The notes beneath the pieces are model-generated. The model was not told the DNA's origin. It saw only the letters and a program-made list of their open reading frames with translations, and searched no databases. The translations under genes and the position numbers were made by a program. Source: an uncultured bacterium (GTDB lineage Bacteria > Cyanobacteriota > Vampirovibrionia > Gastranaerophilales > Gastranaerophilaceae). Taken from it: 43,205 bases of DNA. Location of the stretch: the NCBI GenBank assembly GCA_902797985.1, contig CADBUZ010000019.1, positions 1-43,205 of the forward strand. The letters are read 5' to 3'. Positions 12,375 to 30,365 of the stretch are shown here, one piece after another. Each line of letters opens with the position of its first letter. The first letter of the stretch is position 1.

Positions 12375-13625
12375 TTAAATCGTTCTGCTTAATTTTCTTC
12401 TGTTTTTGTATGATGTTATTTCATCATTTGCTCTATCAGTTTGATCAGTAAATTCTATAGAGCTGTTTTCCGGAAGTCCGTAATATTGCGGTGCAACTTC
12501 GTCATTTGCACGTGCTTCACGAACTCGTAAGCAATTTGACAGATTTACATATGATTCGACAAGATTTTTTCTTACACTATTAAATCCTAGGTCGTTGTGT
12601 TTGTTTTCATCTTCAATGGAATCCAGATATTTGTCATAGTTGTCCCTTAATTCTGCAATATAAGTAGTTATTCGTTCTTTATATTCATCATCTAAAAGTC
12701 CGCTGTAATCCGATGCTTCATCCATCAATAATACTTCATCCGCTTTAGCTTTTAATGTATCTATAAGTTGTTTAGCCGCTTCAGGATTTTCAAATACTTG
12801 CTCAAAAGAAGCTTTTCCATTTTTAACTTCCGGATTTGTCATGAATGTTCCGTTTACATCCAGTATGTTATTTTTTGTGACTCCTGATGCTGATAAATCA
12901 CAATTTGTATGATCACTTTTTATAACTGCATCTACCCATTGATCAGAGATTGCTTTACCTGCATCCAGTCGTGATTTATTGTATGCATCATATTTTTTAT
13001 GAACCAGTTTTTCTAATTTTGCTTGATCAAATTTGTTATTAAGAATGTCATCGCAATATGCCAATCCTTCTTTTGGTTTATTTGCGTATTCAGATCTTAT
13101 TTTGTTGACATCAACTGTTTTTCCGTACTTGTCACAATATTCTTCTATTAGTCCCAGTCTTGCGTTAAATTGACCTGCATAATTTTCAGAGTCAGGTGCT
13201 TGTAGTCCTCCGCCAGTGTTTGCTCCGCCGGCTGTTGATAACCCAACATTTCCTTGTCCAAATGGGTTATAACCTGTATTATTCAAACCTGAATAATTTG
13301 GATTAATTGTAGGGGTAGTTATTGGGTTGGATGTTCCGCTAAAACCGGTACTATCAATCCCAAAATCATATATACCGCTTGAGCGCATAACATCAAAATA
13401 CCCTGTCATTACATCTATATTTGCAGCTAATTTTCTATTCCCAAGTTCAACGTCTCCTCGAGGTGTCGGATCAATAAAATCTGCTATGTTTAGTGTGCCT
13501 ATTGCACTATAAGCCTCGTGTGCCGCTACAGGAACTCCGCTGGCTACTAAAATATCTGCGTCTTTCCAATTTGATCTTACAAATGTTCCACCATCAACTT
13601 TAAATACTCCGTTTGGAATAGTCAT
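12375..13625 (-). CDS. Uncharacterised protein: conserved ~95-residue N-domain plus helical C-terminal region
   Basis: A 416-residue protein of no family I know. Residues 1-97 (start MTIPNGVFKVDGGTFV; core DPTPRGDVELGNRK and DVMTGYFDVM; end GIDSTGF) are about two thirds identical by hand alignment to the whole neighbouring protein at 13829-14122. Residues ~98-150 are a Gly/Asn/Pro-rich linker. Residues ~150-416 are charged and mostly helical. No signal peptide or membrane segment. An upstream in-frame ATG at 13640 lies within the GGGGGA ribosome binding site that serves the ATG at 13625. The shared DNA upstream of both genes shows that the pair arose by duplication. Confidence 0.72.
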   Translation of the reverse strand: MTIPNGVFKVDGGTFVRSNWKDADILVASGVPVAAHEAYSAIGTLNIADFIDPTPRGDVELGNRKLAANIDVMTGYFDVMRSSGIYDFGIDSTGFSGTSNPITTPTINPNYSGLNNTGYNPFGQGNVGLSTAGGANTGGGLQAPDSENYAGQFNARLGLIEEYCDKYGKTVDVNKIRSEYANKPKEGLAYCDDILNNKFDQAKLEKLVHKKYDAYNKSRLDAGKAISDQWVDAVIKSDHTNCDLSASGVTKNNILDVNGTFMTNPEVKNGKASFEQVFENPEAAKQLIDTLKAKADEVLLMDEASDYSGLLDDEYKERITTYIAELRDNYDKYLDSIEDENKHNDLGFNSVRKNLVESYVNLSNCLRVREARANDEVAPQYYGLPENSSIEFTDQTDRANDEITSYKNRRKLSRTI

Positions 13626-13655: not shown

Positions 13656-13719
13656 ATGATAAAGTTTTTTTTAATTCAGAAATTGACTTTTATTTTCATG
13701 ATGTTTACATTTCTTAACA
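13656..13719 (-). promoter_or_regulatory. Promoter A: HLR1-like repeat and -10
   Basis: Minus strand: TGTTAA-GAAA-TGTAAA (13704-13719), then TATCAT (13656-13661), start near 13649. The repeat is centred about 62 bases upstream. The segment from here to the gene is duplicated at 14532-14596. Confidence 0.45.
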
Positions 13720-13780: not shown

Positions 13781-13810
13781 AGATACCGTTTATTTGTTTA
13801 AACGGTATCT
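13781..13810 (-). terminator. Terminator of the 97-residue paralogue gene
   Basis: AGATACCGTTTA (13781-13792) and TAAACGGTATCT (13799-13810), a perfect 12-bp stem with a 6-base loop; on the minus strand it runs into TTTTT. Confidence 0.88.
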
Positions 13811-13828: not shown

Positions 13829-14122
13829 TTATGCAACAAACCCTGTGCTATCAATTCCGAAATTGTAAATTCCGCTTGAGTTCATTACGTCGAAATAACC
13901 GGTCATTACATCCATACTTGCTGCAGTTCGTCTGTTAGCGAGTTCTATATCACCACGAGGGGTTGGATCAAGAAAATTTGCAATATTTAATATCCCAACT
14001 GCGCCATAATTTTCGTGTGCTTGCACAGGTACACCTGATGCACAAAATATATCTGCTTGACGCCATGGTGCACTTACAAAAGTGTTACCGTTAATAGCCC
14101 ATAAACCATTTGGAAAACCCAT
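13829..14122 (-). CDS. Short paralogue: stand-alone ~95-residue domain
   Basis: A 97-residue protein consisting only of the domain that begins the 416-residue neighbour: MGFPNGLWAINGNTFV, ASGVPVQAHENYGAVG, LDPTPRGDIELANRR, DVMTGYFDVM and GIDSTGFVA are shared or nearly so. It stops just after the point where the long protein enters its linker, so it may be either a natural single-domain protein or a shortened copy. The strong conservation of its sequence argues for function. GGAGG lies 7 bases before the ATG at 14122; the in-frame ATG at 14137 overlaps that site. A ~400-base hairpin-rich leader precedes it. Confidence 0.75.
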   Translation of the reverse strand: MGFPNGLWAINGNTFVSAPWRQADIFCASGVPVQAHENYGAVGILNIANFLDPTPRGDIELANRRTAASMDVMTGYFDVMNSSGIYNFGIDSTGFVA

Positions 14123-14170
14123 AATTAATTCCTCCATATATAAGTGTGTAATACAATTTTCAATTTTGTT

Positions 14171-14333
14171 TTCGGTAGTATACCTTTTTATATAGGGGGA
14201 TAGCTAGTATGCCCACCGAATTTCTTGTTGCACATATATCTATATGTGTAACTATATCGACGATATACGTCAATATGTTTGACTGTAACGTGTCTGACCT
14301 ATTTAGGTAGGATATTCCTACCTCTAAACAGGT
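14171..14333 (-). ncRNA. Putative structured leader RNA with four consecutive hairpins
   Basis: The 514-base gene-free stretch 14123-14637 holds this cluster. Plus-strand coordinates: 14171-14220 (TTCGGT arm with ACCGAA, ~11 pairs), 14231-14248 (CACATATA-TC-TATATGTG), 14254-14276 (9 pairs, loop ATATA) and 14297-14333 (GGTAGGA-TAT-TCCTACC extended by TTTA/TAAA and ACCT/AGGT). In hairpins 3 and 4 the only mismatched pair (C58/A72, and A14301/C14329) is a C-A clash on the plus strand but a G-U pair in minus-strand RNA, which points to a minus-strand transcript. It lies between a duplicated promoter (start near 14525) and the 97-residue gene. No known RNA family recognised. Confidence 0.5.
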
Positions 14334-14531
14334 TATATTAGTTTGTTAACATTGCTACGAATTCAATAGTAGAATTTCATACTGTTCTTAGACTAATACG
14401 TTAGACATGTTTAATTTTTTAGAACTAAAAGTAACCCACCATTTTGAGACACCTTTTGTCGAGCAAATAGTGTGTTTGTTAATTAAAATCGTTCATTAAA
14501 CGTATCTAATTACTCTTTTAATTCCCGTACC

Positions 14532-14596
14532 ATGTTAAAGTTTTTTTTTATTGAATAATTGACCTTTTTATAAAACATGTGTAACAAAACTTAACA
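14532..14596 (-). promoter_or_regulatory. Promoter B: duplicated copy of promoter A
   Basis: Minus strand: TGTTAA-GTTT-TGTTAC (14581-14596) and TAACAT (14532-14537), start near 14525. Around the -10, bases such as CCGTACCATG, the following A/T tract and AATTGAC match promoter A, but the ATG found 24 bases downstream in copy A is missing here, leaving a ~400-base leader to the next gene. Confidence 0.42.
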
Positions 14597-14637
14597 ATAT
14601 AGCTAAAAAACAAATTATAATTACGTTTTATAAGATT

Positions 14638-15384
14638 TTAAAAATGTCTGTGTGTAGGGTGAATTAACATATGTGCGATTTTATCAGCACCGTCAAAAGT
14701 TCTTTGAGCTAAAGTTTTTGATGCTTGAAGGTTATCATATTTTACAAATCTATGTTCTACCTCAAAGCTTCCGTCCTCATTTGTGTTTATTATTGCGTAG
14801 CAAGCATCAGGATTTTCTGTAAATGGCCTTCCAACACTTCCGTCATTTACAACAGTTTGATTATTGCTTGTTTGAAATCCGCATGGAATATGTGTATGTC
14901 CGCATAATATTAAATCTGCATCTGTTCCTTGAAGCATTTCTTCTACTTTTTCTAACGGAGTGTCCGGCATGATATCTTCATTGTTTCTTCTTGGAGAGCC
15001 GTGTACCATTAATATTTTTATTCCATCAATAGTTAATTCTTTTTGTTCAGGTAAATTGGCTAAAAAATTAATTTGATTTGGAGTTAAAGTTTCTGCTTCT
15101 TGCTTTAGAGCAGATGCCATTGCAGGAGCACCTTTTTTCACAGTATTATAAATATCTTCGCTGTATTCGGCTATCATTTTGTCTGTATTACCTTGTATCA
15201 TTTCAATGTTTTCTTTTTGTGATAGAGCAATACAAAAATTAACTGTGTCTGATGGTTCGGGACCGGCAAGTGCATAATCTCCTAAAAATAATATTTTTTT
15301 GCAGTCTTGATTTTGTGTATCGTCAAGAACAGACTCAAGAGCTAACAAATTTCCGTGAATATCAGACAATACAGCTATTTTCAT
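14638..15384 (-). CDS. Calcineurin-like metallophosphoesterase (YfcE/MJ0936 type)
   Basis: A 248-residue metal-dependent phosphoesterase. Dinuclear-metal motifs in order are LSDIHGNLLALE (D-x-H), FLGDYALAGPEP (G-D), IQGNTD (G-N-x-[DE]), MVHGSPRR and CGHTHIPCG (G-H-[TS]-H). Such proteins are generally cytoplasmic phosphodiesterases of broad or unknown substrate. The frame extends to 15423, but GGAG 10 bases before the ATG at 15384 and the universal KIAVLSDIHGN start fix the beginning. Divergent from nadA. The physiological substrate cannot be inferred. Confidence 0.87.
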   Translation of the reverse strand: MKIAVLSDIHGNLLALESVLDDTQNQDCKKILFLGDYALAGPEPSDTVNFCIALSQKENIEMIQGNTDKMIAEYSEDIYNTVKKGAPAMASALKQEAETLTPNQINFLANLPEQKELTIDGIKILMVHGSPRRNNEDIMPDTPLEKVEEMLQGTDADLILCGHTHIPCGFQTSNNQTVVNDGSVGRPFTENPDACYAIINTNEDGSFEVEHRFVKYDNLQASKTLAQRTFDGADKIAHMLIHPTHRHF

Positions 15385-28673: not shown

Positions 28674-30365
28674 ATGTCATTACCAAACGTAGCATATTTC
28701 TCAATGGAAATAGCATTAGATCAATCACTAAATACTTATTCAGGTGGTTTGGGTTTCTTAGCAGGTTCACATATGTTGTCTGCAGGATACTTACAAATGC
28801 CTATGGTAGGTGTTACAATGTTGTGGTCTTATGGTTATTATGACCAAAGAATTGACCATTCCGGAAATGTAGAAGTTGCATATATTAGAAAGTATTATGA
28901 TTTTTTAACTGATATAGGTGTAACTGTTGAAGTTGAAACATTTGGCGAAAAAGTTAAAGTAAAAGCATATAGAGTTGAACCAGAACTCTTTGGTGCTTGT
29001 CCTGTATATTTGTTAACAACAGATATTGAAGGTAATAGTGAATGGGCAAAGAGAATTTCTCACAGATTATATGATGGTGATGAAAGAATCAGAATTGCTC
29101 AAGAAACAATTTTGGGTATTGCAGGTATTAGAGTTCTTCAAGAAGTTGGCTACAATTTTGACGTTGTTCATATGAACGAAGGTCATGCTCTTCCTGCAGC
29201 ATTTGAATTGTTAAGACAACATAATGGAGACTTGGCAGAAGTTAAGAAAAGAACAGTATTTACTACTCACACACCTGTTGCAGCAGGTAATGAAGTTCAC
29301 TGGGTTGATACACTTATGCAAGGCGGTTTCTTCTCAGGTTGTTCAAGAGAAAGAGCAATTGAGCTTGGTGGTGAAAACTTCTCACTTACAGTTGCAGCAT
29401 TGAGAATGTCAAGAATTGCTAACGCAGTATCTCAATTGCACGGTTTAGTAGCTAACAAAATGTGGGAATGGGTTGACGGAAGATGTCCAATCAGAGCTAT
29501 TACCAACGCTGTTAACTTACACTATTGGCAAGATAAGAGAATTACAGGTGATGATTCTTCTGAAAAATTACTTGCTACAAAACGTGAAATGAAAGAAGAA
29601 TTATTCAAGTATATAGCGAACGTTGCAGGTAAAAGATTCAACCCTGACGTATTAACAATTACTTGGGCAAGAAGATTTGCTGATTACAAACGTGCTTGGT
29701 TAATTCTTATGGATAAAGATAGAATTAATAAGTTATTAGATGAAGATAAAGTTCAAATCATATTCGCAGGTAAATTCCATCCGGATGATGTTATGGGTAA
29801 AGAAATGTTTAACAAATTGTTAAATCGTTCTCACTCATTAAAGAATGTTGTAGTTCTTCCGGGATATGAACTTCAATTATCTGCAATGCTTAAGAAAGGT
29901 TCAGATATTTGGTTGAATACACCTCTTAGACCATTTGAAGCATCAGGTACATCAGGTATGTCAGCTAATGCCAACGGTGCAGTACACTTATCTATCTTCG
30001 ACGGTTGGACTGTAGAAGGTACTTTTGATGGTATTAACGGTTATACTGTTGAATACGAAGGATTAGATGATGAAATGCCTTGGGAAGAAAGACATTGGAA
30101 AGATCATGAATGTATTATGGATATCATCGAAAATAGAGCTATTCCTACTTATTACAACAATAAGGAAGAATGGGCAAGAATGATGAGACAAGCTATCAGA
30201 ACTGCTGATGCATACTTCAATTCTGATAGAATGGTTGTTGAATATTATAACAGATTGTATAAGCCAATCGCTCATGATGATTCAACTACAGGTGAAACTA
30301 AGAAAGAAATGAATATTTCTGAAACACCTACATTCGATGCTTGGACTTATTCTAACATTAAATAA
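28674..30365 (+). CDS. Alpha-glucan phosphorylase homologue (GT35) lacking the PLP lysine
   Basis: A 563-residue protein of the short alpha-glucan/glycogen phosphorylase family. Family blocks: VAYFSMEIALDQSLNTYSGG, LGFLAGSHMLSAGYL (usual form LAGDHLKSASDL), VHMNEGHALPAAFEL, FTTHTPVAAGNEVHW, WARRFADYKRAWLI, IIFAGKFHPDD and RPFEASGTSGMS. In working phosphorylases the last block reads GTSGMK or GTGNMK, whose Lys binds pyridoxal phosphate; here it is Ser430. It may therefore be catalytically altered, a glucosyltransferase without phosphorolysis, or a binding/regulatory protein. AAAGGA lies 7 bases before the ATG; followed by a terminator, so monocistronic. Confidence 0.85.
   Translation: MSLPNVAYFSMEIALDQSLNTYSGGLGFLAGSHMLSAGYLQMPMVGVTMLWSYGYYDQRIDHSGNVEVAYIRKYYDFLTDIGVTVEVETFGEKVKVKAYRVEPELFGACPVYLLTTDIEGNSEWAKRISHRLYDGDERIRIAQETILGIAGIRVLQEVGYNFDVVHMNEGHALPAAFELLRQHNGDLAEVKKRTVFTTHTPVAAGNEVHWVDTLMQGGFFSGCSRERAIELGGENFSLTVAALRMSRIANAVSQLHGLVANKMWEWVDGRCPIRAITNAVNLHYWQDKRITGDDSSEKLLATKREMKEELFKYIANVAGKRFNPDVLTITWARRFADYKRAWLILMDKDRINKLLDEDKVQIIFAGKFHPDDVMGKEMFNKLLNRSHSLKNVVVLPGYELQLSAMLKKGSDIWLNTPLRPFEASGTSGMSANANGAVHLSIFDGWTVEGTFDGINGYTVEYEGLDDEMPWEERHWKDHECIMDIIENRAIPTYYNNKEEWARMMRQAIRTADAYFNSDRMVVEYYNRLYKPIAHDDSTTGETKKEMNISETPTFDAWTYSNIK

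Follow-up and report, generated by a model that had tools for sequence, protein, structure and literature searches.

Locus organization and promoter class

The window, a stretch of DNA of 43,205 nucleotides, represents contig C19 of a draft genome with a size of 1.86 Mb, presumably from a member of the Gastranaerophilales; the congeneric genome records with which it was compared are metagenome-assembled and originate from rumen and gut. Two neighbouring genes on its minus strand, a small and a large one, code for proteins with a common N-terminal domain, and the small gene is preceded by a long leader:

14580-14597, minus strand: upstream box of the leader promoter, TTAAGTTTTGTTA
14536-14562, minus strand: core of the leader promoter, TCAATT-N12-AAAACTTTA
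14536-14597, minus strand: entire promoter, member of a genome-wide class (initially annotated as a copy at 14532-14596)
~14526 to 14123, minus strand: leader of the small gene, ~404 nt, with predicted start
13829-14122, minus strand: small gene (97 aa, start at 14122), corresponding to the neighbour's N-terminal domain as a stand-alone copy
13781-13810, minus strand: intrinsic terminator of the small gene, comprising a 12-bp stem and an adjoining T run
12375-13625, minus strand: large gene (416 aa), with a leader of ~24 nt and a promoter of the same class at 13660-13686

The leader promoter is divergent from what we take, from its translation, to be a phosphoesterase-like gene (14638-15382); the genes beyond it, likewise named from their translations, are presumably nadA-like and rlmB-like.

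The initial annotation had pointed out that the promoter of the small ORF is a copy of that of its paralogue, located ~400 nt from the start codon as compared to ~24 nt at the large gene. This copy and its distance are borne out by our analysis, but the promoter is not the product of a local duplication; it belongs to a class represented by at least 12 distinct sites in the genome, all with the same 27-nt geometry. The consensus of the class comprises TCAATT or GCAATT (KCAATT), 12 nt, and AAAACTTTA. In most cases, TTAAGTTTTGTAA or a variant of it (the TTAAG...TGTAA box) is located about 35-45 nt upstream, and the start often reads ACGGG(A)ATTAA. A loose version of the pattern matched the genome 17 times, as compared to 3 matches of a reversed control.

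The genes located behind promoters of this class code for unknown proteins, for a terminated RNA present in twin copies, and for a transcript with a second long leader; with their fixed spacing, the sites of the KCAATT-N12-AAAACTTTA class (loci L045-L061) represent a possible regulon. The twin RNAs (L047, G000:C3 ~129100, and L056, G000:C20 ~39950) are near-identical, ~145 nt long, and have a terminator-like end; neither matched an Rfam model at E values up to 1. The second long leader (L049, G000:C13 ~29350-29700; homologue L072) comprises ~346 nt in front of the gene of a 382-aa protein, and a segment of ~60 nt of this leader is 81-87% identical in several congeners. A further structured leader of ~439 nt (z -4.3) with the same promoter class occurs on a second contig of the congener G007 (L041, 1069-2130, minus strand). 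It precedes the gene of a 206-aa protein, the C-terminal part of which has a weak, possibly compositional similarity to PHROG profiles of phage tape-measure proteins (E 2e-8). BLAST comparison of the small-gene leader with the other long leaders of the class, L049 and L041, gave no match, and homology based on short common words such as UAAUUAGAUAC was judged unconvincing.

Structure and conservation of the leader RNA

Alignment of the leaders from congeneric genomes revealed three zones, namely, a conserved 5' domain, a variable middle part which contains the hairpins first pointed out at this locus, and a conserved 3' end:

14515-14526, minus strand: GGGAAUUAAAAG, comprising the predicted start of the transcript and the 5' strand of helix P1, directly after the promoter
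14422-14526, minus strand: 5' domain, the first 105 nt, a three-way junction of P1, P2 and P3 (folding, covariation, covariance-model matches)
14515-14525/14421-14431, minus strand: helix P1
14505-14512/14480-14487, minus strand: helix P2
14465-14476/14433-14444, minus strand: helix P3
14457-14460/14448-14451, minus strand: tip helix P3b of P3
14155-14420, minus strand: variable middle and 3' part, lacking sequence conservation with most homologues
14297-14333, minus strand: hairpin 1 (folding), imperfect pair A14301/C14329, no counterpart in homologues
14254-14276, minus strand: hairpin 2 (folding), imperfect pair C14258/A14272
14227-14252, minus strand: hairpin 3 (folding on both strands), its sole imperfect pair G14230/T14249 favouring the plus strand
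14171-14222, minus strand: hairpin 4 (folding), with a long internal loop
14120-14154, minus strand: conserved 3' end GUAUUACACA...AUAUGGAGG with Shine-Dalgarno sequence (14131-14135) and start codon (leader comparison)

The four stem-loops at 14171-14333 are present as initially described, and they fold far better than expected by chance: the minus strand of 14165-14340 has a predicted energy of -51.1 kcal/mol (z = -5.6), which was reached by 0 of 200 shuffled sequences. A fold of equal quality is predicted for the plus strand (-52.3 kcal/mol, z -4.0). The imperfect pairs of hairpins 1 and 2, which are G-U pairs in minus-strand RNA only, had been put forward as independent evidence for transcription of the minus strand. 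Both pairs are as described; however, G14230/T14249 of hairpin 3 is of the opposite sense, forming a G-U pair in plus-strand RNA and a mismatch in minus-strand RNA, so that the tally is 2:1 and the argument does not constitute independent evidence. A strand call from these pairs was therefore rejected. Neither the leader alignment nor BLAST identified sequence counterparts of the four hairpins in homologous leaders. The middle part is structured in most genomes, in the window without strand specificity, and an element GAUAGUGC is common to the middle parts of G003, G004, G005 and G007, with no counterpart in the window. Contrary to the initial emphasis on 14171-14333, this segment thus belongs to the fast-changing part of the leader, and the conserved structured domain is located 5' of it.

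For the 5' domain (14420-14526), the minus strand yielded -27.9 kcal/mol (z -4.75, 0 of 200 shuffles), and the plus strand -14.2 kcal/mol (z -1.4). Transcription of the minus strand is supported by the predicted fold of this domain rather than by the G-U pairs of the hairpins. Each of six leaders, when folded alone, gave the same P1-P2-P3 topology, P3 being interrupted by an internal loop and capped by the tip helix. In each of them, P1 closes off the 5' end, beginning at nt 1-3 of the transcript as predicted from the putative start site.

In an alignment of the six leaders, 94% of the pair cells contain standard pairs (95% in hand-aligned helices), and two-sided changes occur at 9 pairs, located in P2, P3 and the tip helix (A-U/U-A in P3; A-U/G-C in P3b). 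In P1, the 5' strand, GGGAAUUAAAAG, is the same in the six sequences, which precludes two-sided changes in this helix. The junction domain furthermore contains an invariant asymmetric internal loop, UGYUCG / CUCA. The covariation score of 0.300 exceeded that of shuffled alignments (0.152 +/- 0.023) and that of slid controls, i.e., structures moved by 1-3 columns (at most 0.071); the counts are small and phylogenetically linked, coming from six related sequences, and the alignment, having been fitted to a model derived from five of these six, is biased towards that structure. Covariation of the 5' domain is thus good, though not final, evidence. A covarying structure of the kind to be sought by a covariance search does exist, in 14422-14526.

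The changes between leaders track base pairing rather than codons, which argues against a hidden coding frame and against attenuation by a leader peptide. Several leaders do have, in the P2 loop region, a short reading frame that begins with an in-frame AUG, MN(D/G)F(N/S)-stop, but the AUG is replaced by ACG in G006, an upstream ORF of at least 8 codons with a Shine-Dalgarno sequence was found only as one weak case (G007), and the ORF list contains no frame of 40 aa or more within the leader on either strand; a leader peptide is accordingly very improbable.

The Shine-Dalgarno-proximal segment is conserved as strongly as the 5' end of the leader. The motif in front of the Shine-Dalgarno sequence has been retained by 7 of 8 congeners and also occurs in the unrelated L049 leader of the same genome, which has the UAUUACACA segment before its start codon in common with the small-gene leader, but not the 5' domain. 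Duplex energies for pairing of UAUUACACA with upstream parts of the leader, as in an anti-Shine-Dalgarno interaction, were no better than those of shuffles in any genome. Predicted accessibility of the Shine-Dalgarno sequence varies by genome from 0.16 to 0.60, and therefore no common translation switch is visible; such a switch, with inconsistent accessibility and pairing at the level of shuffles, is unsupported.

The initial proposal of "a structured cis-regulatory RNA or a small non-coding RNA" can now be narrowed down. A stand-alone small RNA might be produced from the leader promoter, with the small gene being translated mainly from another start, and the predicted ~145-nt terminated twin RNAs elsewhere in the genome would be RNAs of this kind under the same promoter class. 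However, no terminator was found inside the leader between the promoter and the start codon of the small gene, and the Shine-Dalgarno-bearing 3' end is conserved together with the 5' end. An autonomous small RNA therefore is unlikely, whereas the cis leader stands. With high confidence, the comparison of sequences identifies the region as a cis leader of the small gene which is conserved, structured and encoded on the minus strand; the initial assignment as structured leader RNA of the 97-residue gene is upheld by covariation and by the homologues found.

Distribution of the leader and co-diversification of the encoded proteins

Within the genus, BLAST matched 14525-14421 in four other genomes. 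A first BLAST search for the 5' domain missed the full domain of G005 and the domain of G007, both of which were recovered by a covariance model (R1), raising the occurrence of the 5' domain to 6 of 8 congeneric genomes. Outside the genus, R1 found no match in draws of 383 genomes of the family and 383 of the order (overlapping draws; strict filters, by which weak matches are lost). All eight congeneric genomes possess a leader of 252-436 nt which is flanked by the same promoter and a small gene, next to the same divergent phosphoesterase gene. G001 and G002 likewise possess the locus, the promoter, and the small and large genes, with leaders of 396 nt and 252 nt, respectively; their 5' domains have diverged beyond recognition, although a P1-like helix remains in G002. 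In the sister genus g40, the large gene follows a promoter of the same class with only a short leader in between; a small gene, or any other second copy of the N-terminal domain, was not found. Since all eight congeners have the leader and no small gene was found in g40, leader and stand-alone gene probably arose before the genus radiated. The view that the leader was inserted or acquired in this particular genome is not supported, as it occupies the same locus in every congener.

These data also bear on the idea that a mobile element of palindromic DNA, such as a MITE, a REP-like element or att-type hairpins, came to lie upstream of the gene. While the series of short palindromes which fold on both strands is reminiscent of such elements, the leader is single-copy in the genome (the promoter part alone recurs), has no terminal repeats, is of similar length in all congeners, and its junction with the promoter was unmatched in viral contigs, which together render a mobile origin highly improbable.

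The small protein corresponds to the N-terminal domain of the large protein in stand-alone form. Identities between the two within one genome are 67% in the window and 65, 70, 86, 68 and 58% in other genomes (58-86% in 6 of 7 genomes; loci 12375-13625 and 13829-14122, minus strand, with homologues L027, L034-L037, L083 and L084), and 36% in G006, the assembly of which does not place the two genes side by side. Comparison of small proteins from different genomes gave identities of only 21-47%, in some cases over short alignments, whereas the C-terminal parts of the large proteins are 52-62% conserved. Within-genome alignment scores of 269-457 (120 in G006) compare with a maximum of 211 for small-large pairs across genomes; because the within-genome scores, except for G006, surpass every cross-genome score, the pair diversifies together. 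Identical residues of the window pair are encoded by the same codon at only 26 of 61 positions, so that the match either dates back a long time or is maintained by selection, and simple recent gene conversion was rejected as its cause. The G003 pair, with 65 of 79 same codons, would fit a recent event.

AlphaFold predicted four strands and a helical hairpin for the small domain (mean pLDDT 77.5) and a helical C-terminal part of the large protein. A search of PDB structures with both proteins returned no fold match with an E value below 0.001, and no family of Pfam, NCBIfam or PHROG fits.

The co-diversification raises the question of whether the leader is a protein-binding site, possibly for feedback by the common N-terminal domain which balances the small and large proteins. 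Presence of the leader on the stand-alone copy only would suit such a role, as would the joint diversification of the two copies together with a likewise fast-changing middle part of the leader. Conservation of the 5' domain, however, contrasts with proteins that are almost entirely different from genome to genome (21-47% identity), making recognition by the variable domain less likely, and the small protein is neither rich in basic residues nor of a known RNA-binding fold. We consider this explanation improbable.

Possible role of the leader

No Rfam model matched the segment at the gathering score, the best sub-threshold matches having E values of 1.8 or more, in agreement with the initial impression that it belongs to no known riboswitch family; the leader domain is a real, previously uncatalogued, genus-specific structured leader RNA. 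A ligand-sensing riboswitch, or another alternative-fold switch controlling the small gene, would be in keeping with the compact conserved junction, its invariant asymmetric internal loop, and its position close to the beginning of a long leader. Several observations conflict with this interpretation: even at E values up to 5, no riboswitch of Rfam was matched, and the expression platform is not conserved, with neither a terminator nor common anti-Shine-Dalgarno pairing. Moreover, the RNA is confined to one genus and, unlike typical riboswitches, the domain occurs once per genome and not before metabolic or transport genes. A riboswitch is therefore as unlikely as a stand-alone small RNA.

The best explanation as a whole, to which we assign a probability of about 0.5, is a cis-acting structured 5' UTR which protects the 5' end of the transcript and tunes translation of the small protein; the mechanism acting on stability and translation, taken on its own, is more tentative. 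Transcription of the minus strand from the strong-looking promoter of the genome-wide class would generate a transcript of the ~404-nt leader and the small gene. By analogy to known leaders, P1, situated at the predicted first nucleotides, may shield the 5' end from decay. The folded body and the conserved Shine-Dalgarno-proximal segment would then determine how much of the small protein is made in proportion to the large one, whose gene has the same domain and promoter class but no such leader.

Stabilization of mRNAs by stem-loops in the 5' UTR has been reviewed, examples being the leaders of E. coli ompA, H. pylori vacA and A. baumannii recA (PMC7509114). The leader described here resembles them in having a helix at or near the predicted 5' end, a long leader, a presumably highly expressed gene, and no visible metabolite logic. 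It is not related to them in sequence, it is longer (252-436 nt), and it contains a covarying three-way junction rather than a simple hairpin; stabilization is proposed here by analogy. Conserved covarying secondary structure in a 5' UTR is also a property of the candidate structured motifs and riboswitch-like cis-regulatory RNAs of Rfam 15, but the present leader matches no model, is restricted to one genus and one locus, and has no discernible expression platform. In autoregulatory leaders, such as those of ribosomal protein genes or the rne 5' UTR, the product or an RNase sets its own level via the leader structure, which could likewise apply here; in contrast to these systems, no recognizable RNA-binding protein is encoded at the locus, and a hypervariable protein is combined with a conserved 5' domain. 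A more speculative and rather improbable variant is that the conserved RNA represents a new class of RNA acting as a dedicated stoichiometry controller, the 5' junction and the element before the start codon sensing the amount of the small/large pair or of a factor common to the promoter class and adjusting the level of the stand-alone domain; a conserved RNA would then deal with a protein domain of which almost nothing is constant between species.

A full-text literature search retrieved nothing on riboswitches or leader RNAs of Gastranaerophilales, and the structured RNAs of these non-photosynthetic relatives of cyanobacteria appear to be little studied. The locus yields a covarying RNA motif, a promoter class common to several unknown proteins and RNAs, and a co-diversifying gene pair with promoters of that class. 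If the leader does control the balance of the pair, it would represent a simple case of a conserved RNA governing a hypervariable protein system.
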